DNA of 58,729 nt from a virus. This document shows positions 1 through 58,729 of this stretch, in pieces. Below the pieces are notes generated by a model. That model was given only the letters and a program-made list of their open reading frames with translations. It was not told the DNA's origin and did not search any database. A program made the translations under genes and the position numbers. The stretch covers positions 1 through 58,729 of IMG/VR virus record IMGVR_UViG_3300045912_000522. One strand, 5' to 3'. Within the stretch, counting starts at the first letter, position 1; each line of letters opens with the position of its first letter.

Positions 1-174
1 CGAGGCATTCACCGTGAGCAGCGTGCCGCCAGCGTTGAAATCGTCAATGCGGAACGGCACCTGGGTTTGGCCATTCGCCATTTTGATGAGAAGGCCGAGG
101 TTGCCAGCGTTCAGTGTGTTGAGAGTGAGGGCCACCGTGGATATCACGGCACCATTCAGAGCATGGTATCCGTT
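1..174. repeat. Terminal direct repeat (contig overlap), copy 1
   Basis: Bases 1-174 match 58556-58729 with a single difference, A at 47 against G at 58602. This means the window closes into a circle of about 58,555 bp or comes from a terminally redundant genome. The repeat lies inside one open reading frame that continues without a break across the join, which supports real circular continuity. The single mismatch could be a sequencing error or strain variation. Confidence 0.95.
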
Positions 175-3418: not shown

Positions 3419-4060
3419 CTAGACCATCCGGCCTGCGGCCCGGCGAATTCGCGTGTCCATGTCGACGGGCTCCTTGTTCTTGCCGTTGCCCGCGCCCGCG
3501 TCGGCGCTGCCGGCACTCGGCTTCACAAAGAGTTGCGGATACTCGCGCTTCACGGCGGCGACCCCGGCCTTCACATCCTCGGCGTCCGCCGGCACCAGTC
3601 CGACAATCGCCTCGGGCACGATGGCCCCGGCCGCTGCGGCCTGCGCGAGGATGGCCGCCCGGCGGCTCTCGCCCGCGAGCCGGGCGTTCTCCGCCTCCAG
3701 CTCCTTCAGCCGCTTCTCGCGCCTCTCGGTGTCGGAGAGCTTCTCGTCCTCCAGCGCCTTGAGCTTGGCCTCGATGGCCGCTTTCTCGCGCCGGTGCTTG
3801 GCCGCTTCCTCGCGGAGTTCGCGGACGTAGCTCTCGGGATACTGCTTGTCGTTCTTGGCGTCGCCGGCCCCGCCGGCACCCGCCTGCTGCTGCCCGCCTG
3901 GGGCACCGCCTTCGTTGCCGGACTGGCCGCCGCCCTCACCGGTCCCGCCGCTGCCGGCCGGGGAACCCGCCCCGTCGCCGCTGCTGGTTGAACCGCCCGA
4001 GCCTGCGCCGCTGTCCGCGCTGAAGACCGTAAAGGGCTCCTGGCCCAAAAGATGTCGCAT
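3419..4060 (-). CDS. Capsid scaffolding protein
   Basis: About 213 residues from the ATG at 4060, which has a GGGAG Shine-Dalgarno close upstream; the longer upstream reading frame has no such support. The layout is that of a scaffold: a Gly/Ser-rich, disordered N-terminal half, a strongly charged coiled coil in the middle (EEAAKHRREKAAIEAKLKAL and onward), and a short basic C-terminus with DTRIRRAAGR. Such proteins direct HK97-type capsid assembly and are then expelled or degraded. The gene directly precedes the major capsid gene in the leftward operon. Confidence 0.85.
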   Translation of the reverse strand: MRHLLGQEPFTVFSADSGAGSGGSTSSGDGAGSPAGSGGTGEGGGQSGNEGGAPGGQQQAGAGGAGDAKNDKQYPESYVRELREEAAKHRREKAAIEAKLKALEDEKLSDTERREKRLKELEAENARLAGESRRAAILAQAAAAGAIVPEAIVGLVPADAEDVKAGVAAVKREYPQLFVKPSAGSADAGAGNGKNKEPVDMDTRIRRAAGRMV

Positions 4061-4245: not shown

Positions 4246-4282
4246 GTTGAACCATCATCGCAGCGCGCTTGCTCCGTTGAAC
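4246..4282 (+). promoter_or_regulatory. Paired operator-like heptamers GTTGAAC
   Basis: GTTGAAC occurs at 4246-4252 and 4276-4282, in the same orientation and exactly 30 bp apart. The second copy sits inside the -35/-10 spacer of the dpdA promoter. The same heptamer and spacing recur across the genome, suggesting a repressor binding site. Confidence 0.65.
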
Positions 4283-4297
4283 CGAAATCGGTAGACT
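4269..4297 (+). promoter_or_regulatory. dpdA-queF promoter with embedded operator
   Basis: TTGCTC at 4269-4274, a 17-base spacer that contains GTTGAAC, and TAGACT at 4292-4297. Transcription would begin about 15 bases before the dpdA start codon, with GGAGG at 4304-4308 as the ribosome-binding site. The layout matches the promoters at 6809 and 27758. Confidence 0.7.
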
Positions 4298-4317: not shown

Positions 4318-5070
4318 ATGCATTTCTGGCTCGGCACACATCAACCTGCCTGGTTGGAACGCCTGGATGTGCCGCTCTGCGTGTCGCGCCGCCGGCTGGC
4401 CGGTCGGAAGCGCCTGCCGCGTGCCCGCGTGCCGTGGGTGCTAGACAGCGGCGGATACTCGGAGCTGGATCTCTACGGCGAGTGGACTGTCGGGCCGGAG
4501 CAGTATGTCGCCGAGGCGCGCCGGTTCGCTGCCGAAATGGGGCAACTGGAGTGGGCCGCACCGCAGGACTGGATGTGCGAGGAGTGGATCCTGGAGAAAA
4601 CGGGCCTGCCCCTGCGAGAGCACCAGTGGCGCACACTGGCGAGCTACCTCACGCTGACGGATATGGCGCCCGACATACCCTGGATACCTGTGCTTCAGGG
4701 GGCCGCGACCGAGGACTACCTGCGCCACGCGGACGCCTACCTCGCGGCGGGCGTGGAGTTGGAGCGGCTGCCAATCGTCGGAGTGGGCAGCGTCTGTCGC
4801 CGTCAGGCGATGGATGAGGCAGAGGTCATCATCCGACAACTCCAGCCTCTGAACCTGCACGGCTTCGGGTTCAAGATGACTGGGCTTCGGCGCTGCTGGG
4901 ACGTGCTGGCCTCCGCCGACAGCATGGCCTGGTCATTCGCCGCGCGTCGGCAACCGCCACTGCCGGGCTGCACCCACAAGCACTGCAACAACTGCATCAT
5001 CTACGCGCTCCAGTGGCGCGACGAGGTGCTTCGGATACCGATTGGACAACAGAGGACGCTGCGACTATGA
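4318..5070 (+). CDS. dpdA: DpdA-like 7-deazaguanine DNA transglycosylase
   Basis: A 250-residue TGT-fold protein of the phage DpdA type, which swaps guanine in DNA for a 7-deazaguanine base such as preQ0. The start MHFWLGTHQPAW and the sequence PWVLDSGGYSEL place a catalytic-type Asp at residue 43. WAAPQDWMCE follows at 79-88, IPVLQG at 123-128, VGVGSVCRRQ at 154-163, and LHGFGFK at 180-186. A second Asp in SADSMAWS at residue 201 matches the nucleophile position of tRNA-guanine transglycosylases. C218, H220, H222, C223 and C226 form a likely zinc site. Its stop overlaps the start of the QueF-like gene. No preQ0 synthesis genes (FolE, QueD, QueE, QueC) were seen, so the base is probably taken from the host. 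Confidence 0.85.
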   Translation: MHFWLGTHQPAWLERLDVPLCVSRRRLAGRKRLPRARVPWVLDSGGYSELDLYGEWTVGPEQYVAEARRFAAEMGQLEWAAPQDWMCEEWILEKTGLPLREHQWRTLASYLTLTDMAPDIPWIPVLQGAATEDYLRHADAYLAAGVELERLPIVGVGSVCRRQAMDEAEVIIRQLQPLNLHGFGFKMTGLRRCWDVLASADSMAWSFAARRQPPLPGCTHKHCNNCIIYALQWRDEVLRIPIGQQRTLRL

Positions 5071-5417
5071 CCCTGAAGACGATGCCCAACGAGCTGCCCC
5101 GCGTGCCCCTCTGGGTGGAGAATACCATCGCCCTACCGAAGTGCTGCCCCGTCAGCGGGAACCCGCAGGCCGGCAGCCGCGTTCGTATCCGCTACCGGCC
5201 GGCCGAGGCCGTGCTAGAGGTCTACTCCCTCAAAGGCTACATCGCGGAGTATGTCGGCGGCCACGAGAACGGCATTCGGAGCATGGAGGCGATGATACAG
5301 CGGATCGCCCTCGACTGCGCCGAAGTCCTCGGCGTGCCGGTCGTCGTGCTGGCGGATCTCGTCCTGCACCCACACCAGGAGATGCGCGTCCGCGTCAAGG
5401 CTCTCCCGCCCGCGTAG
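5067..5417 (+). CDS. QueF/QueF-L-like preQ0-modifying protein
   Basis: About 116 residues from the ATG at 5067, which overlaps the dpdA stop (ATGA) and has AGAGGA upstream; an earlier start inside dpdA is possible. The sequence PKCCPVSGNPQAG resembles the QueF active-site loop (S-x-C-P-x-T-G-x-P-D), with C27 as the likely nucleophile. LEVYSLKGYI matches the QueF E-S-K-S-L-K motif, and the SMEAMIQRIALD helix holds a Glu at the position of the substrate-binding Glu. The Asp after the Cys loop that QueF needs for NADPH reduction is absent (NPQ rather than QPD). That points to a QueF-like enzyme such as an amidinotransferase rather than a nitrile reductase. It would act on preQ0, free or in DNA, together with DpdA. 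Confidence 0.72.
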   Translation: MTLKTMPNELPRVPLWVENTIALPKCCPVSGNPQAGSRVRIRYRPAEAVLEVYSLKGYIAEYVGGHENGIRSMEAMIQRIALDCAEVLGVPVVVLADLVLHPHQEMRVRVKALPPA

Positions 5418-5512: not shown

Positions 5513-5651
5513 ATGGCGACGAGCGTGGTGTTCTACGGAGTGCGGTGGGGAAGCGAGCCCGAGCAGCAGGTCGAGGGGCCGCACCTGACCGCGCCGAGCG
5601 TGTGGGCCGCCGACGAAGGCCACCGTGCTGGAGGAGGCCGTCCCCGCCTAG
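5513..5651 (+). pseudogene. Small unknown gene (about 45 aa) with probable frameshift
   Basis: ATG at 5513 has a strong GGAGG about six bases upstream. The frame gives MATSVVFYGVRWGSEPE and continues to VWAADE, then runs deep into the opposing minor-head gene without a stop. Removing one A from the GAAGG at about 5615-5619 makes the frame read on to ATVLEEAVPA and stop at 5649-5651. That stop lies exactly in the hairpin where the opposing gene also ends. I infer a one-base insertion or sequencing error in a real 45-residue gene. The function is unknown. It may belong to the dpdA-queF unit. Confidence 0.4.
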
Positions 5652-5656
5652 CGGGG
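5642..5656. terminator. Bidirectional hairpin between convergent genes
   Basis: CCCCGC and GCGGGG form a perfect 6-bp stem around a CTA loop. The loop carries the minus-strand stop of the minor head gene and overlaps the plus-strand stop at 5649-5651. No T-run follows, so termination activity is uncertain. Confidence 0.45.
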
Positions 5657-6742
5657 CGGCCCCGGCACCGCCGCCGCCCCGACGACCTCGCCTCCTCTGC
5701 CGTCCCGCACCGCCCGCAGGCTCCTCGCGTAGTGCATATCCCCCCACTCGGGATTGCCTCGACGGGCTACGAAGTCGGCCAACGACACCTCGCCGCGACG
5801 ATACGCCTCGTAGCCGGCTGGCCCGAGCACCGCGCGCTGCGTCTCCTCTGGCTGCCGGGCGAACACATCGCTGCCGGCTTCGATTTCCGGTCGCGTTTCC
5901 GGTATCCCGTGGAAGCCCAGCTCTGCCCAGGAGCGCGTTCTGGGGCTCATACTGCAGCGACACGCAGGGTGAGACGCAAGCGGCTCGTCAAGCGGCCAGA
6001 ATGACCCGTGGAGCGCCCAGCAGCTAGGACAGGTGCGAGGCCCCAACTCTGCCGTCCACACCCACCCCTCGACGACATCCGCGTTCGCCTGGTAGGTCGC
6101 CCGCGTCGCCTCACGGTGCGCGCGTAGCACCTCCGTCCTGGCGATCAGCAACGCGCGGTTCAAGCCCAGGCTCTCCGCCTCCCGCACCTGCCGCGCTATC
6201 TCGCGCGGGCCGAGGCCGGCCGCGACACCCGCGAGAAGCCCCTGCTCGAGTCGCTCCGACACGAGGGCCGGCAGCGCGTCGAACAGCCGGCGGAGGGGGC
6301 TCCCGTCGCCCAGGACGCCGACCAGCTCCTCCAGCGCACCCGCGGGCAGCCGCAGAAACGACACCTCCACCGCCGCGACCGCCGGCGCCGGCCCGTCGCC
6401 GAGGGCTGCCAGCGTGAGCTGCCGCGCCTGCTCCCCAGCTGCCGCCACCGTCTGCGCCTGCCGCGCCTCCGTCTCCTGCGCCGCCTGGCGCGCGAACGTG
6501 GCGAGCGCCGCCTCTGCCTGCGCCTTGAGGTTCGCCAGCCGCTCCTGCTGGAACAGCCACGACACGCCGACCGGCTGCCCGCGCTCCTCCGCCTGCGCTA
6601 TCTGGCGCGTGACGCGGTCGAGCTGCTGCGAGAGGCGGGCCGTAGCGACGGCGTAGGCGCGGACCATGCGCGCGGCGGCGCGGCTCTCCTGCGCGAGGAG
6701 GTCGCGGCGGAACTCGGCTGCGAGGGCTTGCAGGGTAGCCAT
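5648..6742 (-). CDS. Minor head/head morphogenesis protein, SPP1 gp7 (Mu gpF) family
   Basis: 364 residues. The N-terminal half is a long Ala/Gln/Arg-rich helical region. The C-terminal half has the family signature: an IARTEVLRAHREATRATY helix, then WVWTAELGPRTCPSCWALHG, and ASHPACRC with its Cys/His residues. Members bind the portal and are packaged inside the head, sometimes helping DNA ejection. The gene lies downstream of the portal on the same strand, with a plus-strand island of three small genes between them. The start ATG at 6742 follows a leader that contains a 20-base sequence repeated at 26657-26676. Confidence 0.88.
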   Translation of the reverse strand: MATLQALAAEFRRDLLAQESRAAARMVRAYAVATARLSQQLDRVTRQIAQAEERGQPVGVSWLFQQERLANLKAQAEAALATFARQAAQETEARQAQTVAAAGEQARQLTLAALGDGPAPAVAAVEVSFLRLPAGALEELVGVLGDGSPLRRLFDALPALVSERLEQGLLAGVAAGLGPREIARQVREAESLGLNRALLIARTEVLRAHREATRATYQANADVVEGWVWTAELGPRTCPSCWALHGSFWPLDEPLASHPACRCSMSPRTRSWAELGFHGIPETRPEIEAGSDVFARQPEETQRAVLGPAGYEAYRRGEVSLADFVARRGNPEWGDMHYARSLRAVRDGRGGEVVGAAAVPGPPR

Positions 6743-6808: not shown

Positions 6809-6837
6809 TTGCACAGTTGAACTTCTCCCGGTAGAGT
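6809..6837 (+). promoter_or_regulatory. Promoter with embedded operator for the 6.8-7.7 kb island
   Basis: TTGCAC at 6809-6814, a 17-base spacer holding GTTGAAC at 6816-6822, and TAGAGT at 6832-6837. A second, inverted heptamer GTTCAAC at 6847-6853 lies 31 bp downstream, between the Shine-Dalgarno GGAGG and the start codon at 6856. Confidence 0.7.
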
Positions 6838-7121: not shown

Positions 7122-7406
7122 ATGAGCAACAACCTACCGCCCGGCCTTACCGGCCTGGAGCCGGAAATCGTCGGCTACGACGAAGCCGAGTATCCCTTCC
7201 ACGTGTGGGCGATGGAGCACCGCGAGGACGGCTGGGAAGACGAGGTCGTCTGTCGAACGCGCGAGGAGGCGGTCAACGTCTACGGCGGGATGGTCGACAC
7301 GCTGGTCTACGCGAACGGCCCCGTCGTGGAGTGGCGGCCCGGCAGGACGAAGGGCACGCGCTACACGGTGGGCATTACCGACCTAACGGGAGATGAGGGG
7401 CGATGA
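7122..7406 (+). CDS. Hypothetical protein (94 aa)
   Basis: An acidic protein of 94 residues with AGGAGG before the ATG. The middle (HVWAMEHREDGWEDEVVCRTREEAVNVYGGM) has the look of a small alpha/beta domain. Its stop overlaps the next start (ATGA), so the two are probably co-translated. No family is recognised. It is read opposite to the surrounding head genes. Confidence 0.6.
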   Translation: MSNNLPPGLTGLEPEIVGYDEAEYPFHVWAMEHREDGWEDEVVCRTREEAVNVYGGMVDTLVYANGPVVEWRPGRTKGTRYTVGITDLTGDEGR

Positions 7407-7687
7407 AGACCCAGAGGTGGCCGCTCCTGCCGCCTGACGAAGCCAAGCGCAGGGCCGCCCTAGCAGCGCGCGACTGCCGCTCCAACAGCAAGCGCGTGGG
7501 CGGCCTCCTCGCCCGCGTCTGGGAGGGATACGAGAGCGAGACGGGGAAGCCTGACCCGGAGGAAGCGGAGAACCTGCTCGCCTCCGTGGACGCGGCAGCA
7601 GCCGCGGCACGGGAGCTTCTCGCAGCAATGGGCTACCGCCGTACGGTCGAGAAGTGGGAGCGAAAGGCGGCCGACTATGTCGAGTGA
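7403..7687 (+). CDS. Hypothetical protein (94 aa), helical
   Basis: A mainly helical, charged protein (LAARDCRSNSKRVGGLLARV, then an Ala-rich helix ending in RELLAAMGY). It starts with an ATG that overlaps the previous stop, and it ends a few bases before a hairpin that separates it from the oppositely read portal gene. No recognised domain. A DNA-binding or regulatory role is possible from size and charge but cannot be shown. Confidence 0.6.
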   Translation: MKTQRWPLLPPDEAKRRAALAARDCRSNSKRVGGLLARVWEGYESETGKPDPEEAENLLASVDAAAAAARELLAAMGYRRTVEKWERKAADYVE

Positions 7688-16867: not shown

Positions 16868-17677
16868 GTGAGGGGAAACAGGCTCTCGACCCAGGAACAG
16901 GCTGCACTCTGCGCCATCGCGCAGAGGCGCGCACCGGGAGACCCGGCCGCCGCCGAGGAGCGGCTCCTTCTGCAGTTCGACGGGCTCTGCAAGCGGCTGG
17001 CGGGTAAGCTCGCGTTCGTGATCGACTACGATGACGGACTGCAGGAGGCACGGTGCGCAGCCCTGCGCGCCTTCCGAACCTTCAATTCGGCCCGCGGCGT
17101 CCAGCTCTGCACGTATGTCCACAGTGCCATCGTCAACGCCCTACGGCGCCTCATGCAGCGAACGGCGACCACGATCACGTTCCCGGCCTACGTCTACAAC
17201 GAGCTGCGCGTGATTGATGCAGCCGAAGCCCAACTTCAAGAGAAGTCCGGCCGAAGCCCCTCCGACGAAGAGCTGGCGGACGTGATCGGCTTGCCTGCTG
17301 ATCGTGTGCGCGCCCGCCGGCTGGTGCTCCGGCACCGCCTCTCTCTCGACGCTGCCGCCACGAACTCCGATGGCAAGCCCGTAACCCTCGCCGACTTTAT
17401 TCCCGATGACGGCCCCCTGCTGGAAGACGCCGTGGCGGACGCCGACGAATTCGCCCGCGTCATAGGCCCCGCTCTCGACGCCCTCACGCCAAAGCAACGC
17501 GACGTCCTCCTCCGCCGCTTCGGCCTTCCGCCCTACGAGTGGCCGCACACGATGCGCGAGGTCGCGGAGGCGTGGAGGACGACCCCGCAATACGTCAACA
17601 ACATCGAGCAGAGCGCCCTCCGGCGTATGCGCGCCCTCCTGGGCCTGGGGAGCGAGGAGGACGCGCAGGCAGCGTGA
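16868..17677 (+). CDS. Phage-encoded sigma-70 family RNA polymerase sigma factor
   Basis: 269 residues from GTG at 16868. Region 2 includes LVFVIDYDDGLQEAR-like and FRTFNSARGVQLCTYVHSAI segments. Region 3 includes KSGRSPSDEELADVIGLPAD. Region 4 has LTPKQRDVLLRRFGLP and an HTH, TMREVAEAWRTTPQYVNNIE. It would redirect host RNA polymerase to phage promoters. TE2 sits between this start codon and the native AGAGGAGG. GGAGGG at the element's edge (16856-16861) now provides a substitute Shine-Dalgarno about seven bases upstream. The native promoter is on the far side of the element. Confidence 0.88.
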   Translation: MRGNRLSTQEQAALCAIAQRRAPGDPAAAEERLLLQFDGLCKRLAGKLAFVIDYDDGLQEARCAALRAFRTFNSARGVQLCTYVHSAIVNALRRLMQRTATTITFPAYVYNELRVIDAAEAQLQEKSGRSPSDEELADVIGLPADRVRARRLVLRHRLSLDAAATNSDGKPVTLADFIPDDGPLLEDAVADADEFARVIGPALDALTPKQRDVLLRRFGLPPYEWPHTMREVAEAWRTTPQYVNNIEQSALRRMRALLGLGSEEDAQAA

Positions 17678-18147: not shown

Positions 18148-18350
18148 AGCGAGCCGGAGGTTGTCGTCCCCCGGCCCGCCAAAGGTGCCGCCCTTCCCCG
18201 GCTGGGAACTACTCTTCTCGTGTGCCTATCCCCCGCAGGGCTATCGCCTGAATGAGGGCGCGATACGGGCGGCTGCCCGGCCTGTATTCGGTTGACTTGG
18301 TGCGGCACCCCTCGCACATGGGCGGACCATTGATTGAAGCTGCCGACCAG
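18148..18350. other. Intergenic, no gene seen
   Basis: About 200 bases between the 117-residue gene and the tRNAs. Several GC-rich inverted repeats are present, but I see no open frame with a ribosome-binding site and no clear third tRNA. Confidence 0.5.
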
Positions 18351-18422
18351 AGCCGCCACCGGAAATCGAACCCAGATACTCCGCCTTACAAGGGCGGTGC
18401 TCAACCATTGAGCTGTAGCGGC
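18351..18422 (-). tRNA. tRNA-Thr (anticodon UGU)
   Basis: A full cloverleaf on the minus strand: acceptor GCCGCTA/TGGCGGC, D-arm with AGCTCAATGGTTGAGCA, anticodon stem CCGCC/GGCGG with loop CTTGTAA, and T-loop TTCGATT. The CCA end is not encoded. It is the second gene of a two-tRNA unit. Confidence 0.9.
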
Positions 18423-18445
18423 GTGCGCTGTCGTGTGCAATGAGA

Positions 18446-18519
18446 GGTCAGGGGCTGGATTCGGACCAGCGTTCTTCGGCTTATGAGGCCGACGAGATAG
18501 ACCACTTCTCCACCCTGAC
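18446..18519 (-). tRNA. tRNA with CAT anticodon (Met or lysidine-Ile)
   Basis: Minus-strand cloverleaf: acceptor GTCAGGG/CCCTGAC, D-stem GAGA/TCTC, anticodon stem TCGGC/GCCGA with loop CTCATAA, and T-stem GCTGG/CCAGC with loop TCCGAAT. The CAT anticodon could be elongator Met or AUA-reading Ile. No CCA end is encoded. It is transcribed first, from the promoter at 18583-18611. Confidence 0.88.
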
Positions 18520-24539: not shown

Positions 24540-25127
24540 TTGAAGACGCGACTTTCACTTCGCACACTGGCCCTGGCCGCCGTTCTGGCTCTGACCGGAG
24601 CGCCTCACGTGCAGGCCACGAGCCCTTCGTTCCCGCCGGACATCAGCACGACGAAGGTGGGGACACCGACGCAGGACGGCCTCTTCCAGTGGGAGTGGGA
24701 CGTGTTCGCCGGACAGAAGCCGGCCCTCTCTCACTGGGTGCTGATGGACTTGTGCGCCGACGTCTACGCCGACATCGTGCCGGGCTCCCTCTACGGCGGC
24801 ACGAACTACGAGTTCGGCCCTGACCCGACGACCGCCACGACGGGCCTGAAGTTCGAGGTGAACCTCAACGACCTCGGCCACGGCCTGTTCGGGTTCAAGA
24901 CCGAGAAGCAGTGGGAGCCGGGGCTCTACGACGTGGCGTTCAAGTCCGGCCAGAACGTGACCTTCCAGTCCAACGTCGTCGGTCCATCCTGCGAGGAGGT
25001 GCCGTGCGAGCCTCCGGCACACGCCCCCGAGCCCGCCACGGCGGGGCTCCTCGGCCTCGGGCTGTTCGGACTCTGCCGACGCCGGCTGCCGGCGCGGTTC
25101 CCGGTGCTGCGAGGACGGCGAGCCTAG
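24540..25127 (+). CDS. Secreted PEP-CTERM sorting-signal protein
   Basis: 195 residues from a TTG at 24540 with AAGGGG upstream. A clear signal peptide (RLSLRTLALAAVLALTG) is followed by a beta-rich secreted body with two Cys near the end. The C-terminus is a textbook PEP-CTERM tripartite tail: PEPA, a TAGLLGLGLFGL hydrophobic stretch, then a CRRR basic cluster. In hosts with exosortase such proteins are cleaved and displayed at the surface, often in EPS/biofilm contexts. Finding one in a phage is unusual. It suggests prophage-driven surface change in an exosortase-bearing host. Confidence 0.82.
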   Translation: MKTRLSLRTLALAAVLALTGAPHVQATSPSFPPDISTTKVGTPTQDGLFQWEWDVFAGQKPALSHWVLMDLCADVYADIVPGSLYGGTNYEFGPDPTTATTGLKFEVNLNDLGHGLFGFKTEKQWEPGLYDVAFKSGQNVTFQSNVVGPSCEEVPCEPPAHAPEPATAGLLGLGLFGLCRRRLPARFPVLRGRRA

Positions 25128-25477: not shown

Positions 25478-25751
25478 CATCCCGGAGACGGGGGACTTCG
25501 TGACCGGGTGGCTGATGGTAATGCGGGCGCGCGCCGTGACGCAGCGGTGGAATGACCGCTATCCGAAACGGCAGGTGCCCGTGGAGTGGGCCGAGGAGGC
25601 GGCGCGAGCGTGGGCGGTGGCGGAGGCGCTCGGCGCGACGGCAGCCGGTCTCGATGCCCAACGCTACATGCTGGAGTTCACCGTCAAACTGCCCATCGAG
25701 CTGATTGAGATGATCTGGAACGGGAGGGACTTCCCCGATGAACTGGATTGA
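25461..25751 (+). CDS. Small helical protein (96 aa), paralogue of 26373-26654
   Basis: It contains RARAVTQRWNDRYPKRQVPV, EWAEEAARAWAV and a KLPIELIEMIW end. The gene at 26373 repeats this pattern (RARVATEQWNEEHLERVVPW, EWVEEA, KLPAGLRAEIW), so the two are clearly related. They flank the GGDEF gene, overlapping it at both ends. This suggests they work with, or regulate, the cyclase. No outside family is recognised. Confidence 0.65.
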   Translation: MTRGDDIPETGDFVTGWLMVMRARAVTQRWNDRYPKRQVPVEWAEEAARAWAVAEALGATAAGLDAQRYMLEFTVKLPIELIEMIWNGRDFPDELD

Positions 25752-26376
25752 TGTTGCGGGCTACACCGGCCCTGATCGGCGCCGTGACCTGGAGACGCGA
25801 AAGCGCCTCGACGCGATGAGCCGCGAGGAGCTGCTGCAACTCTTGCTCACCGACCCGCTCACGGGATGTCTCTCCGCCCGCGCCTTCGAGGAGGCGGAGC
25901 GGTTCAACCCAGCGCGCTGCTATTGCGTGTGGGACGTGGACAGCCTCAAGTGGCTGAACGACACCTATGGCCACGAAGCCGGTGACGCGCTCCTGCAGGC
26001 CTTCGCCCGCGCGGCCTTCGAAGAGGGGCTCCTCCTCTACCGCACCGGCGGCGACGAGTTCGTCCTGCGCGTCGAGACGGACTGGAGCCGAAACGAGACC
26101 TGGCGGCGGCTGGTCGGGCTCCAGGCCCGGTTCCGCCACGCCGTGTTCGCCTGGCGAGACGAGCGCGGCGAGCTGCACGCCGCGACGGGCGCGGGCGCGT
26201 CGTTCGGCTTTGCCGCCGAGCGGGCCGAGGCGGAGGCCCACCTGCGGCGGATGAAGGCCCTGCGGACGATGGCCGGTTCGCGGGCGGAGCGCGGCGAGCG
26301 GCCCCGAACGCTGCGGGTGCTGTCGGAGGCCGCCACGGTGGCGCACCTCCTGGGCGCGACGTGCGAGGCCGCATGA
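25738..26376 (+). CDS. GGDEF-domain diguanylate cyclase
   Basis: 212 residues. It starts with a YTGPDRRR motif seen in front of many signalling domains, then TDPLTGCLSARAFEEAERF. CVWDVDSLKWLNDTYGHEAGDALL supplies the metal-binding Asp and substrate Asn/Asp residues, and YRTGGDEFVL has an intact GGDEF at residues 104-108. No RxxD inhibitory site lies five residues before it. An intact active site predicts synthesis of cyclic-di-GMP from GTP in the cytoplasm. The cyclase has no sensor domain of its own. It overlaps both paralogous neighbours, so all three are co-translated. Confidence 0.85.
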   Translation: MNWIDVAGYTGPDRRRDLETRKRLDAMSREELLQLLLTDPLTGCLSARAFEEAERFNPARCYCVWDVDSLKWLNDTYGHEAGDALLQAFARAAFEEGLLLYRTGGDEFVLRVETDWSRNETWRRLVGLQARFRHAVFAWRDERGELHAATGAGASFGFAAERAEAEAHLRRMKALRTMAGSRAERGERPRTLRVLSEAATVAHLLGATCEAA

Positions 26377-33934: not shown

Positions 33935-36358
33935 ATGCAGACCGATTACCAGGCATTTCTGGCGTCGAAGCGGCTCGTCGCGCCGACGGTCGGCGTGGAC
34001 GTCCAGCCGGAGAAGTTGCACCCGGCGCTGTTCCCGTTCCAGCGCGACCTCGTGCGGTGGGCGCTCCGAAAGGGGCGCGCCGCCATCTTCGCCGACACCG
34101 GGCTAGGGAAGACGTTGATGAGCCTCTCCTACGCCCAGCACGCTGCTGAACGAGTGCTCATCCTGGCCCCGCTGGCGGTGGCGCAGCAGACGGTGCGCGA
34201 GGGGGCCAGGTGGGGCATTGAGGTGACGTATGCCCGGTCAATGGAGGCGGCACCCGAGCGCGGTATCACCATCACGAACTATGAGATGTTGTCGCACTTC
34301 GACCCGGCCGCGTTCGGTGCTGTTGTGCTTGATGAGTCGGCCATCCTGAAGTGCTTCAACGGAAAGACGCGAACTGCACTCATCGAGGCGTTCAGGCGAA
34401 CTCCCATGCGCCTCTGCTGCACAGCAACGCCGGCCCCGAACGACATACAGGAGATTGCCAATCACGCGGAGTTCCTGGGCGTGATGAGCCGCGTGGAGAT
34501 GTTGGCCCACTTCTTCGTTCACGATAGCGAAGGGTGGCGATTGAAGGGCCACGCGCGGAGGGGATTCTTCCGCTGGCTGGCCAGTTGGGGGATGGCCGTC
34601 AAGAGGCCTTCGGATCTGGGCTATGGCGATGATGGCTACGAGCTGCCGGCGCTGACCGTCACGCCCCACTTCATCGAGACAGACTACAGGCCGTCGGATC
34701 GCCTGTTCGACGTGGGGCTGAAGGGTATCACTGATCGCGCCCAGGTCCGACGCGGCACCCTGAACGCCCGCGTGGAGCTCGCCGCCGCGCTGGTCCGCGC
34801 GGAGCCGTGGGAGGCGTGGCTCTGCTGGGTGGGACTGAACGACGAGGGCCAGGAACTCGCCCGTCTCCTGACCGACGCGACGCTCGTGGAGGGTAGCCAG
34901 TCGCCCGACGAGAAGGCGGCGGCGCTGCTCGGGTTCGCGGACGGCACCGTGCCGACGCTCATCACGAAGAGCGGGATTTCCGGCCACGGGATGAACTGGC
35001 AGCACTGCGCACGGATGGTGTTCGTCGGCCTGTCGGATTGTTACGATGAGAAGACAGAAGTCCTCACGCGGCGGGGCTGGCAGAGCTTCGGGGACATCAG
35101 CACCGAAGACGAGCTAGCAACCGTCAACCCCAACAGCTTGGGGCTTGAGTGGCAAACCCCATCTCGGATTGTCTGGGAGCCCTACAGTGGCCCTATGCTG
35201 CACTTCTCCGGGCAGCGCAACTTTGACCTGATGGTGACGCCCAACCATAAGCTGTTCGTTCAGCGGTGCCCCATCAGGTTCCCGAACGGCTGTTCCGACT
35301 GGCAGCTTCGCTATGCCGAGGAGATAGCCGCTCGATACCGGCGGAGCGAATACCGGATGATGAGCGCGCCGCGCTCTGCAGAGGGGAGCCGACCGGCGGA
35401 CATTGAGATACCGGCTCACGGTCGGATCAACAGCCGCTCGCGGACAGTGGAGAGGATCCCTGCCGACGACTTCATGCGCCTGGCTGGCTGGTATCTGTCG
35501 GAGGGACACTGTCGTCCAATCGGAAGCCTTGAGGCGGGGCGAATAGTGATTTGCCAGTCCGAGCAGAATGCGGCGCACCGCGAAGAAATCATCGCCCTCC
35601 TGAAGCAAATCGGGCTCAACGTGAACAGCAATACCAAGGATATTACTGCCTACAGTATCAATCTGGCGGTCTTCCTGATCGAACAGTTCGGATCCGGTGC
35701 CAACGGGAAGCGGATTCCGCGATGGGTCAAGGATCTCCACCCAAGCCTTCTCGCTACCCTCCGAGACACGATGCTCAAGGGCGATGGGTGCCATCGTAAG
35801 GGAGTGCCCCACTCCTACCGAACGACGAGCGCAGAGCTTGCGGACGACTTTCAGGAGATATGCCTGCTTACCGGCATTCGAGGCTCGGTTCACTACAGAA
35901 GCAGCGTCGGGAGTATTCGACACTCTGACAAGGGCATATATGACATTCAACTCTCCTGGGAGCGGCTTACGCCCTCGATCCACCGTCCGCCGGAACGCGT
36001 GAAGTATGAGGGGATGATTGGGTGCGCAACCGTTCCGAACCATACGCTCATCGTCCGCCGGAACGGCATTCCCGTCGTTAGCGGCAATAGCTGGGAGGCC
36101 TACTACCAGTCCATCCGGCGCTGCTGGCGCTTCGGGCAGACACGGCCGGTCCACGTCCACGTTATCCTCTCAGACCGCGAAAGAGACATCTGGAACAACG
36201 TCCAGCGCAAGGAGGCGGAGGCAGAGTGGCTGTCGCGCGAGCTGATCGCCAACGCGGCCGAGTTCGCGAAGTCGGAGCTGGCTGCAATCACGGCGGCGGA
36301 AGAGTACCGGGCGGCGGTCCAGATGAGCGTGCCAGAGTGGCTGAAGGGAGGGTGCTGA
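33935..36358 (+). CDS. SNF2-family DNA helicase/ATPase interrupted by an intein
   Basis: 807 residues as translated. The extein is about 457 residues, usual for phage SNF2-like helicases. Motif I is IFADTGLGKTLMSLSYA, the DEAH-like box is VVLDESAILKCFNGKTR, motif III LCCTATPAPND, and the C-terminal RecA lobe ends in YYQSIRRCWRFGQTRPVHVH (motif VI). A 350-residue intein separates FVGLSD from SWEAYYQ just before motif VI. Splicing is required to complete the helicase. The protein would remodel DNA, probably in replication or recombination. Its stop overlaps the methyltransferase start. Confidence 0.87.
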   Translation: MQTDYQAFLASKRLVAPTVGVDVQPEKLHPALFPFQRDLVRWALRKGRAAIFADTGLGKTLMSLSYAQHAAERVLILAPLAVAQQTVREGARWGIEVTYARSMEAAPERGITITNYEMLSHFDPAAFGAVVLDESAILKCFNGKTRTALIEAFRRTPMRLCCTATPAPNDIQEIANHAEFLGVMSRVEMLAHFFVHDSEGWRLKGHARRGFFRWLASWGMAVKRPSDLGYGDDGYELPALTVTPHFIETDYRPSDRLFDVGLKGITDRAQVRRGTLNARVELAAALVRAEPWEAWLCWVGLNDEGQELARLLTDATLVEGSQSPDEKAAALLGFADGTVPTLITKSGISGHGMNWQHCARMVFVGLSDCYDEKTEVLTRRGWQSFGDISTEDELATVNPNSLGLEWQTPSRIVWEPYSGPMLHFSGQRNFDLMVTPNHKLFVQRCPIRFPNGCSDWQLRYAEEIAARYRRSEYRMMSAPRSAEGSRPADIEIPAHGRINSRSRTVERIPADDFMRLAGWYLSEGHCRPIGSLEAGRIVICQSEQNAAHREEIIALLKQIGLNVNSNTKDITAYSINLAVFLIEQFGSGANGKRIPRWVKDLHPSLLATLRDTMLKGDGCHRKGVPHSYRTTSAELADDFQEICLLTGIRGSVHYRSSVGSIRHSDKGIYDIQLSWERLTPSIHRPPERVKYEGMIGCATVPNHTLIVRRNGIPVVSGNSWEAYYQSIRRCWRFGQTRPVHVHVILSDRERDIWNNVQRKEAEAEWLSRELIANAAEFAKSELAAITAAEEYRAAVQMSVPEWLKGGC
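35039..36088 (+). other. Intein with LAGLIDADG homing-endonuclease domain (helicase gene)
   Basis: The 350-residue intein starts at Cys (CYDEKTEVLTRRGWQSF) and ends VVSGN before Ser of the extein. Splicing blocks: A at the N-terminus, B as MVTPNHKLFV (T-x-x-H), F as VPNHTLIVRR, G as SGN|S. The penultimate residue before Asn is Gly rather than the usual His. The endonuclease has LAGWYLSEGH and MLKGDGCH as the two LAGLIDADG-type motifs, the first with Glu in place of Asp. Confidence 0.88.
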
Positions 36359-38262
36359 TGACCGTTCACGTCTGCGAGCAGTGGCAGGGAGATGGGTGGG
36401 CGCTCTACTGCGGCGACAGCGCCGAGGTGCTCCAGGGCCTTCCGTCGTCGTCGGTGGGGCTGACGGTGACGAGTATACCATTCAGCTCGCTGTTCACATA
36501 CTCGGCGAGCGACCGCGACCTCGGCAACTGCGCCGACGATGCCGAGTTCTTCGCGCACCTGGGCCACATCACGCGGGAACTGCTGCGGGTGACCATGCCT
36601 GGCCGGCTGGCGTGCGTCCACGTTATGAACCTCGTCACGACGAAGGCGCGCGACGGCGTCGAGGGCCTGCGCGACTTCCGGGGCCACACCGTCCGCCACT
36701 TTGTCGAGCACGGCTGGATATTCCACGGCGAGGTGTGCATTGATAAGGACCCCCAAGCCGCTGCCATCCGCACGAAGGCGAAAGGCCTCCTCTTCGTGCA
36801 GCTCCACAAGGATAGTTCGTGGATGAGGCCGGCCCTCGCCGACTACGTCCTGCTCTTCAGGGCGCCCGGCGAGAACCCGGTGGCCGTGAAGCCGGACTGC
36901 GACAACGAGGACTGGATCCGCTGGGCGCGGCCCATCTGGTATGGCATCGAGGAGACGAAGGTGCTGAACGTCGCCGTGGCCCGCGAGAACGATGACGAGC
37001 GTCACATCTGCCTGGCTCGTGGCTCGTTGGTTCTCACCCGTGAGCACGGCTACATTCCCATCGAAGAGGTGCAGCCCGGCAACCTGGTGCTCACCCACAC
37101 CGGGCGATGGATGCCCGTAACCGGAAAGCGCTGCAACGGGACGAAGCCCGTCGTTCGGCTGTGCGCGCAGGGAGTGGCCGATCTTCGGCTGACGCCGGAT
37201 CACCAGCTCTGGGTTCGGGATGGCTCCGGGTATCACTCCAAGTCTAAGGCGCGCCGAACTGCTCCCGACTGGGTGCCTGCAGAGAACTCGCTCGGGTCTT
37301 ACGTCAACCTCAAGCTCCCGCCAGTCGAGGAAGACGCTCTGACCGAGCACGAGTGGTGGATCGTTGGCCGATGGCTCGCCTGCGGACATCGCGGAGGCCA
37401 CCGTCGAAGCGGCAAGCGTGGCGGCCTGGGGCAATTCTACATCTCGTGTGGAGACGACAAGTTGCGAGAGCTTCTCCAGCACCTCGGGGAACACGCCGGG
37501 CACGCGTCGCGCGTTACGGCTACCCAGATTGCGCTGCGGAACCTAAGGCCCGAGGTTAGGGATGTTCTGGATCGGTGCGGCAACGGGGCTTCGGGAAAGC
37601 GGCTACCCGGCGAAGCGGTTACCCTGTGCCATGAGAAGGCGGAGGCGCTTCTGTCGGGATATCTGTCCGGTGACGGTCACTTCGTCGAGCGGTATGACCG
37701 CTGGTGCGCCTCCTCCATCTCTCGCGCGCTTCTGCTGGGAATGGCGCTGGTAGCGCAGAGGGCGCGGGGTGTAGTTCCGAGCATCTACGCTGGTCGGCCC
37801 GCGCGCAACGGCCAGATCGAGGGTCGCGACGTTCAGATGAGTCAGGATTGGGTCTTCGCCTTCCGATCCTCGGCCGGATACCGCCAATCGGGCTGGATAC
37901 AAGACGACGGGGCCTGGAAGAAGGTTCGGAAGATTGACGACGTGGGCGATACCGAGGTCTGGGACATTAGCGTGGCGGAGGACGCCTCATTCACGGCCGA
38001 GGGGTGCGTCGTAAAGAACTGCCCGCTTCAGCTCGACACCATTGAGCGATGCGTCCGACTCTGGTCAAACAAAGGCGATGTCGTTTTGGACCCGTTCAAC
38101 GGTATCGGGTCGAGTGGCGTAGTGGCGCTAAAGCACGGACGCCGTTACGTCGGTGTCGAGCTGAAGCGGAGCTACGCCGAGGTGGCCGCGCGCAACTTGG
38201 CCGATGCCGAGCGACAAGCGAACGCGCTACGGCTGCCCTTATTCGAGCCGCCGGAACCGTGA
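36358..38262 (+). CDS. DNA (N4/N6-type) methyltransferase interrupted by an intein
   Basis: 634 residues as translated; the extein is about 297. Motif I (AdoMet binding) is VLDPFNGIGSSGVVALKHGRRYVGVEL near the C-terminus. The catalytic region near the N-terminus reads LTVTSIPFSSLFTYS. There the usual S/D-P-P-(Y/F) motif IV is SIPF, an odd replacement of the first Pro. This order (motif IV before I) fits beta-class enzymes. It would methylate cytosine N4 or adenine N6 in phage DNA, giving protection from restriction. The ATG overlaps the helicase stop. Confidence 0.83.
   Translation: MTVHVCEQWQGDGWALYCGDSAEVLQGLPSSSVGLTVTSIPFSSLFTYSASDRDLGNCADDAEFFAHLGHITRELLRVTMPGRLACVHVMNLVTTKARDGVEGLRDFRGHTVRHFVEHGWIFHGEVCIDKDPQAAAIRTKAKGLLFVQLHKDSSWMRPALADYVLLFRAPGENPVAVKPDCDNEDWIRWARPIWYGIEETKVLNVAVARENDDERHICLARGSLVLTREHGYIPIEEVQPGNLVLTHTGRWMPVTGKRCNGTKPVVRLCAQGVADLRLTPDHQLWVRDGSGYHSKSKARRTAPDWVPAENSLGSYVNLKLPPVEEDALTEHEWWIVGRWLACGHRGGHRRSGKRGGLGQFYISCGDDKLRELLQHLGEHAGHASRVTATQIALRNLRPEVRDVLDRCGNGASGKRLPGEAVTLCHEKAEALLSGYLSGDGHFVERYDRWCASSISRALLLGMALVAQRARGVVPSIYAGRPARNGQIEGRDVQMSQDWVFAFRSSAGYRQSGWIQDDGAWKKVRKIDDVGDTEVWDISVAEDASFTAEGCVVKNCPLQLDTIERCVRLWSNKGDVVLDPFNGIGSSGVVALKHGRRYVGVELKRSYAEVAARNLADAERQANALRLPLFEPPEP
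37009..38019 (+). other. Intein with degenerate LAGLIDADG endonuclease (methyltransferase gene)
   Basis: The 337-residue intein starts with Cys (CLARGSLVLTREHGYIP) and ends VVKN before Cys of the extein. Block B is LTPDHQLWV (T-x-x-H) and block F is DISVAEDASFTAEGC. The endonuclease region keeps a good second motif, LLSGYLSGDGHF, but the first (WWIVGRWLACGH) is degenerate. Homing may be weakened while splicing is likely intact. Confidence 0.87.
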
Positions 38263-58250: not shown

Positions 58251-58729
58251 GCGGCGAGCCCGAGATTAATCAGAGCAGTGCGAATGCTGTTCGCGAGAGT
58301 GATGACCGTGGCTTGATCAGTGGCTGCTGCGGCGACGGCCTGCCGGACAACCGCTGCGGCGCCCAAAAAGCCGACCTTGGGGTTAGTGCCGTCAGCCTCA
58401 CCGCGCATGATCTCGCGGTCACCGTTCCAGTCCGTCGCGTGCAGTCTGATACGCCCCTGGCGGGTCGCATCCGTGCTCACCGCAAAATCTCCCGCGACGA
58501 AAGCGACCTGCCGCCCGAATGTCGTCGAGGATTGCCGGTTCAGTGTGAGTTCGCCCGAGGCATTCACCGTGAGCAGCGTGCCGCCAGCGTTGAAATCGTC
58601 AGTGCGGAACGGCACCTGGGTTTGGCCATTCGCCATTTTGATGAGAAGGCCGAGGTTGCCAGCGTTCAGTGTGTTGAGAGTGAGGGCCACCGTGGATATC
58701 ACGGCACCATTCAGAGCATGGTATCCGTT
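58247..58729 (-). CDS. Tail appendage/fibre-like protein, C-terminal part
   Basis: Continues the gene at 1-966 around the circle: 58555-58247 adds 102 codons plus stop, giving 424 residues in total. Bases 58556-58729 repeat bases 1-174. The tail holds RQVAFVAGDFAVSTDATRQG and TDQATVITLANSIRTALINL, ending GLAA. An ATG at 58702 is internal, not a real start. Confidence 0.7.
   Translation of the reverse strand, partial: NGYHALNGAVISTVALTLNTLNAGNLGLLIKMANGQTQVPFRTDDFNAGGTLLTVNASGELTLNRQSSTTFGRQVAFVAGDFAVSTDATRQGRIRLHATDWNGDREIMRGEADGTNPKVGFLGAAAVVRQAVAAAATDQATVITLANSIRTALINLGLAA
58556..58729. repeat. Terminal direct repeat (contig overlap), copy 2
   Basis: Repeats bases 1-174 with G at 58602 in place of A at 47. 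On the minus strand this turns the codon for Ile (ATT, GCGGATTGAC context, near the left copy) into Thr here: the left copy reads VPFRIDDFN and the right copy VPFRTDDFN. Confidence 0.95.

Follow-up and report, generated by a model that had tools for sequence, protein, structure and literature searches.

A phage dpdA gene coupled to an Asp-less branch of the QueF fold: a candidate two-gene cassette for 7-deazaguanine modification of phage DNA

The dpdA locus and its genome context

The window, by which we mean the whole 58,729-nucleotide stretch of viral DNA that was analysed, contains a pair of overlapping genes on the + strand, dpdA (4318-5070, 250 aa) and an open reading frame for a QueF-like protein (5067-5417, 116 aa). 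A preliminary description of this DNA had given the coordinates of both exactly, and the overlap that it noted between the stop of dpdA and the start of the QueF-like gene is present as ATGA at 5067-5070. The pair is flanked by two genes on the opposite (-) strand, one for a head scaffold (3419-4060) and one for head morphogenesis (5648-6742), and in this it resembles the B1-type mycobacteriophage Pops, where dpdA also forms an opposite-strand island in the structural module. The features of the locus are as follows.

4246-4253, + strand: GTTGAAC copy, operator candidate upstream of dpdA, 30 bp upstream of the next copy
4269-4297, + strand: promoter-like site TTGCTC-17-TAGACT with GTTGAACC in the spacer; a pattern match, with putative promoter function
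4276-4283, + strand: second GTTGAACC copy, between the -35-like and -10-like hexamers of dpdA
4318-5070, + strand: dpdA, predicted DNA 7-deazaguanine (preQ0) transglycosylase, from Pfam, phrog, AlphaFold2 fold, D43/D201 and the C218/H220/C223/C226 metal cluster
5067-5070, + strand: ATGA overlap of the dpdA stop and the queF-like start, suggestive of translational coupling; similar overlaps occur in relatives
5067-5417, + strand: QueF-fold protein of the CPVSGNP branch, 116 aa; C27 corresponds to Cys55 and E74 to Glu97 of B. subtilis QueF, Q34 stands at Asp62, and the QueF and RGG motifs are absent

The first and last 174 bp of the window (1-174 and 58556-58729) are the same sequence apart from one mismatch. 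Although the record is classed as linear, it is therefore probably a complete genome of 58.7 kb, and the phage is likely temperate since it encodes a tyrosine integrase. The matches to its TnpB and terminase proteins are of mixed taxonomy. Three TnpB-type genes occur in this one phage (9444-10592, 15627-16757, and 21187-22359, all on the - strand), one of them between terminase and portal, and a DNA methylase gene (36352-38262, +) carries an apparent intein/LAGLIDADG insertion. The phage also encodes a sigma-70-type factor with regions 2, 3, and 4 (16868-17677, +), a protein that matches part of the GGDEF (diguanylate cyclase) domain (25738-26376, +), and a protein with a C-terminal PEP-CTERM sorting motif (24609-25127, +), which may be a hint to the host. 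Two tRNA genes, Thr(TGT) and Met(CAT), are located at 18350-18519 (-), apparently downstream of a strong TTGACA-17-TAGAAT promoter that has a GTTGAAC site just upstream.

The DpdA protein

By its sequence, the product of 4318-5070 is unambiguously a phage DpdA. It scores 284.9 bits against the Pfam DpdA family PF23859, far above the cut-off of 27, and 297 bits against phrog_1279 (annotated as queuine tRNA-ribosyltransferase). The residues D43 and D201, whose presumed catalytic role is taken over by analogy from the TGT/DpdA superfamily, are invariant in 45 aligned relatives, and the C-terminal Cys/His cluster (C218, H220, C223, and C226) is invariant in a six-phage alignment but is missing from the more distant DpdA type of loci L109-L112, L120, and L121. 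The profile score and the invariant residues bear out the DpdA-type protein with D43, D201, and a Cys/His cluster of the preliminary description. The best relatives among phage records share about 50% identity and are mostly mycobacteriophage proteins. Alignments were needed to go further, as single-sequence searches of viral_contigs with either DpdA or the QueF-like protein gave no relatives and phmmer searches of the PDB with each gave no convincing match.

The AlphaFold2 model of DpdA has a pLDDT of 93.1, and its closest fold in the PDB is DpdA itself (7ui4, E=2.2e-7), followed by the tRNA-guanine transglycosylases (TGTs). That DpdA belongs to the TGT superfamily and that the phage carries two tRNA genes would fit a pair that modifies tRNA or some nucleic acid other than DNA, but both Pfam and the fold comparison rank DNA-acting DpdA above TGT, which makes such a target very improbable. 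The insertase activity of the DpdA family is established. We consider the predicted DpdA step to be as firm as sequence allows, and the phage very probably has a DpdA that would exchange guanines in DNA for a modified base from the host.

Source of preQ0

The window has no match at E≤1 to QueC, PTPS/QueD, GTP cyclohydrolase I (FolE), or the radical SAM enzyme (QueE), in agreement with the preliminary description, and neither a preQ1 riboswitch nor a match to the YhhQ-type preQ0 transporter was found in it. Matches to the preQ0 pathway within 10 kb are limited to three of the 80 closest DpdA loci, and in 21 of the 80 a homologue of the YhhQ/COG1738 queuosine-precursor transporter, a family that was identified on a gene of Sinorhizobium phage phiLM21, adjoins dpdA (21 IMG/VR loci, L009, L011, L013, L014, L017, and L018 among them, to which L128, 2577-3104, is added). 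With so few pathway genes and so many transporter homologues, this DpdA group generally seems to take its preQ0 from outside the phage.

The contrast drawn earlier with known systems holds in that this is a DpdA system without a preQ0 pathway of the phage, but that is not unusual: 76 phages with DpdA and without preQ0 genes made up one group in 2019, for which outside preQ0 was proposed (PMC6884629). The locus is thus like the DpdA phages that lack FolE, QueD, QueE, and QueC and require host preQ0, such as Salmonella phage 7-11, Pantoea phage MED16, and Mycobacterium phage Orion (PMC6884629, PMC8306585). Group 3 of that classification has DpdA without FolE/QueD/QueE/QueC and without an amidotransferase homologue (PMC6884629); the window lacks the preQ0 genes and has a QueF-fold protein, which places it between groups 1 and 3.

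Orion, with DpdA only, has unmodified DNA, its host being without preQ0 (PMC6884629). Given this precedent, and a window with neither preQ0 genes nor a YhhQ-type match, the cassette might likewise be idle in the host of this phage and the phage DNA unmodified. We regard this as decidedly unlikely, as both reading frames are intact and their active-site residues conserved, and QueC matches of 239 and 190 bits occur in a Rhizobium genome that hosts a relative.

The QueF-like protein

QueF is defined by Cys55, Asp62, and Glu97 together with the NADPH-binding motif E(S/L)K(S/A)hK(L/Y)(Y/F/W), and proteins without any one of these are excluded (PMC5372742). In our profile alignment C27 falls on Cys55, pinned by the Ala of the C55A chain 4fgc, and E74 falls on Glu97, pinned by the Gln of the E97Q chain 5udg. 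The catalytic Asp62 is replaced by Q34, NPQ standing at the position of QPD in QueF, and in place of the NADPH motif there is EVYSLKGY (PVEDLAAF and similar in relatives). The Cys loop with C27 and the loss of the reductase Asp that had been described are thereby confirmed, and with the catalytic Asp absent the protein is, as was suggested, unlikely to be a standard preQ0 reductase. As a single sequence it stays well under the cut-offs, with 28.1 bits against the TIGR03139 equivalog (cut-off 86.9) and 20 bits against a second QueF profile (cut-off 27.3), compared with 166.3 bits for the QueF of phage Dp-1 against TIGR03139.

Despite this weak single-sequence match, the model confirms a clear T-fold of the QueF/QueF-L kind. 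The AlphaFold2 model (pLDDT 92.9) aligns by VIA-align to QueF 4f8b/4fgc with Z 13.1 and rmsd 2.4 over 109 aligned residues and to QueF-L 5jyx with Z 12.9 and rmsd 1.9 over 99, so that the modelled structure leaves the two tied in Z. With bacterial QueF (B. subtilis 4f8b/4fgc/5udg) it shares the fold and the Cys55 and Glu97 columns, although the branch to which it belongs lacks Asp62, the QueF motif, and RGG. With archaeal QueF-L (Pyrobaculum calidifontis, 5jyx/5k0p) it shares a small single T-fold, the thioimide Cys column (C27), a similar Y-x-G segment, and the lack of the QueF NADPH motif, whereas QueF-L keeps the Asp (CPISKTVD, against CPVSGNPQ here) and HEE, where the branch has Q/L/R/A/V and (M/F)E. 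A QueF-fold protein in a virus with 7-deazaguanine in its DNA has its parallel in Streptococcus phage Dp-1 and halovirus HVTV-1, which have dPreQ1 in their DNA (PMC6884629), but the QueF of these viruses has kept its Cys-loop Asp, PRGG, and the motif (E)(S/L)KSLK, and the viruses, unlike the phage studied here, encode preQ0 synthesis.

An identity of the QueF-like protein with DpdL, reportedly a decarboxylase according to a 2023 paper, was considered and rejected; gp67, a small neighbour in the phiST cluster, scores just 3 bits against a QueF profile.

A branch of QueF-fold proteins linked to dpdA

Alignment-based searches recovered a branch of 11 distinct phage and prophage sequences with the motif CP(V/M)SGNP. 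Its members are the protein of the window and those of loci L031, L023, L107-L112, L120 (Aureimonas glaciei), and L121 (Rhizobium sp. Root483D2), with L031 counted once because L032 and L034 are identical to it over the gene pair. All 11 have retained the nucleophilic Cys and the substrate-anchoring Glu. Where the catalytic Asp would be, they carry Q, R, L, A, or V, and the NADPH and RGG motifs are likewise missing from every member. A maximum-likelihood tree with 30 rows has a single edge, of support 91/87, that parts the branch from 17 canonical QueFs, which include the chromosomal QueFs of the Rhizobium and Aureimonas hosts; the alignment is short and this support is moderate, and QueF-L enters as a short fragment on a long branch. 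A tblastn search of 50,697 phage records with two branch members found no member and only two weak matches, to canonical QueF. When the PDB is searched with a profile of the branch alone, archaeal QueF-L comes out on top (E=0.0016), with QueF behind it (E=0.009). The branch thus resembles QueF-L no less than QueF, and the preference is small. Pfam QueF misses most branch members; its search of 21 DpdA records is little informative on the branch, and the branch-specific profile on the 80 DpdA loci is the better test. In sequence terms, then, CPVSGNP is a previously unlabelled branch of the QueF fold and the gene in the window is no lone degenerate copy.

The branch is closely linked to dpdA, which lies at the QueF-like gene in 10 of the 11 members, mostly with overlaps of 4 or 16 nt and in both gene orders. 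The stop of dpdA overlaps the QueF-like start as ATGA in the window, L109, L110, L112, and L120 and as GTGA in L121, and the order is reversed in L111 (with an ATGA overlap) and in L031 and L023 (by 16 nt in L031). In L112 a complete dpdA is found about 0.6 kb upstream, and a C-terminal fragment of dpdA directly overlaps the QueF-like gene. The sole exception, L107, has no DpdA match on its 38-kb contig. Two DpdA types, with and without the C-terminal Cys/His cluster, are linked to the branch. We take this repeated coupling in both orders as strong evidence, at the level of gene arrangement, that the two proteins share a function. The dpdA neighbourhoods that were read in phages of Mycobacterium, Streptomyces, Rhizobium, and Sinorhizobium showed no QueF-like partner. 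A PAPS-reductase-like (PP-loop) protein is encoded near dpdA in several different phages (L004 2002-3093, L127 3097-3906, and L112 7608-8519) and is a possible further partner there; it was considered for the window, which has none.

The copies in Rhizobium sp. Root483D2 and Aureimonas glaciei have prophage-type surroundings, with phage-type replication genes adjoining, and both bacterial genomes have a separate canonical chromosomal QueF (114.4 and 111.6 bits). Hosts with an ordinary QueF of their own would gain little from a spare reductase, which the phage copy probably is not. That bears on the alternative that the QueF-like protein still reduces preQ0 despite its divergence, giving dPreQ1 in DNA as in phage Dp-1 and virus HVTV-1. 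Such a role would agree with the QueF fold, the weak QueF-II profile match, and the dPreQ1 of phages with canonical QueF (PMC6884629), but besides the QueF already present in the hosts, no member has Asp62 or the QueF motif, both of them defining features (PMC5372742), and the score falls well short of the QueF cut-off. We hold it to be improbable.

Regulation upstream of dpdA

The heptamer GTTGAAC occurs at 28 sites in the window against 4.45 expected, with 20 of them intergenic (p about 3e-10) and repeat spacings of 30-31 and 62 bp. Groups of sites are found, for example, at 6816/6847, 15476/15538/15600, 27208/27238, and 31697/31728. The promoter-like layout ahead of dpdA, TTGCWC-N-GTTGAAC-9-TAGAST, has two matches in the window with 0 mismatches against 0.00 expected, a zero expectation that is somewhat flattering because the site was first spotted by eye and then pattern-tested. 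The second match, at 6809-6837, lies ahead of a + strand gene pair (7122-7687). Scans for sigma-70 promoters and terminators found nothing. Because GTTGAAC copies and a recurring promoter-like layout precede dpdA, it is plausible that a phage-wide regulator acts on the cassette through GTTGAAC. The earlier claim that the pair is under the phage operator has sequence support, from the two copies upstream of dpdA and the genome-wide excess, and such control might, as was suggested, tie the cassette to lytic growth.

Proposed function of the gene pair

Based on the conserved columns, the fold, and the linkage described above, we put forward a hypothetical mechanism in which DpdA and its QueF-like partner form a cassette for DNA modification, inserted among the head genes of an integrase phage on the strand opposite to theirs. 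In our proposal, DpdA replaces guanines of DNA by a 7-deazaguanine, which is most likely preQ0 taken from the host; its partner would hold this base by E74 and attack the nitrile group with C27. Binding of 7-cyano-7-deazaguanine and attack on the nitrile are suggested because the Cys and the Glu are kept, and no reduction would follow because the NADPH motif is lost, so that the partner could not use NADPH as QueF does. The nitrile would most likely be converted to an amidine (dG+) or an amide (dADG), and the partner would probably act on DNA after insertion, as archaeal QueF-L acts on tRNA. The outcome would be phage DNA that resists restriction by the host. To this reading, in which DpdA inserts host preQ0 and the partner converts the nitrile non-reductively via C27, we give a probability of about one half.

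The main rival gives the QueF-like protein no catalytic role: as a preQ0 carrier or a subunit of DpdA, it would shield preQ0, perhaps as a C27 thioimide, from the QueF of the host and pass it to DpdA, with dPreQ0 as the final base. This would explain why members retain the Cys and the base-anchoring Glu although they have lost the Asp and the NADPH motif, and the QueF of the hosts of two members would indeed compete for preQ0. The neighbour slot of DpdA relatives is, moreover, often taken by the preQ0-transporter homologue, another supply function, and no locus has both a YhhQ-like and a QueF-like gene, an exclusion that is suggestive but not significant (Fisher p=0.10). A pure binder, however, would not need the nucleophilic Cys that every member has, and we think a carrier role unlikely.

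Any mechanism of non-reductive nitrile conversion has to deal with the missing Asp. QueF-L converts preQ0 in tRNA to G+ with ammonia and uses its conserved Asp as general acid/base (PMC5485725). The suggestion in the preliminary description that loss of the Asp points to a G+-like base is not borne out, as archaeal QueF-L uses the same Asp, and QueF-L chemistry is not simply transferable to a partner in which that residue is missing (PMC5485725). A QueF-L-like non-reductive role has its better argument in the branch profile, which matches QueF-L, and in the lost NADPH motif. We regard a QueF-L-like non-reductive product as the most likely and most economical reading of the sequences, with the amide (dADG) equally open. 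More tentatively, and with slightly less confidence than in the reading above, we suggest that the CPVSGNP branch may be a new enzyme type that performs non-reductive, Asp-free nitrile chemistry on preQ0 in the DNA of temperate phages supplied with preQ0 by the host, the product being dG+, dADG, or some new base.

The dependence of DpdA on outside preQ0 is already known; the unexpected part is the coupled, Asp-less branch of the QueF fold. Phages 7-11 and MED16 have dADG in their DNA with no known enzyme for the dADG step (PMC6884629, PMC8306585), and, if the product is the amide, the Asp-less branch may explain dADG in DpdA-only phages. The cassette bears on how DpdA phages that lack a pathway of their own come to have bases other than dPreQ0. 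With its ten relatives, which include prophages in Rhizobium and Aureimonas, it is a candidate for a new last step in the 7-deazaguanine modification of phage DNA, and CPVSGNP provides a sequence signature by which more members can be found.
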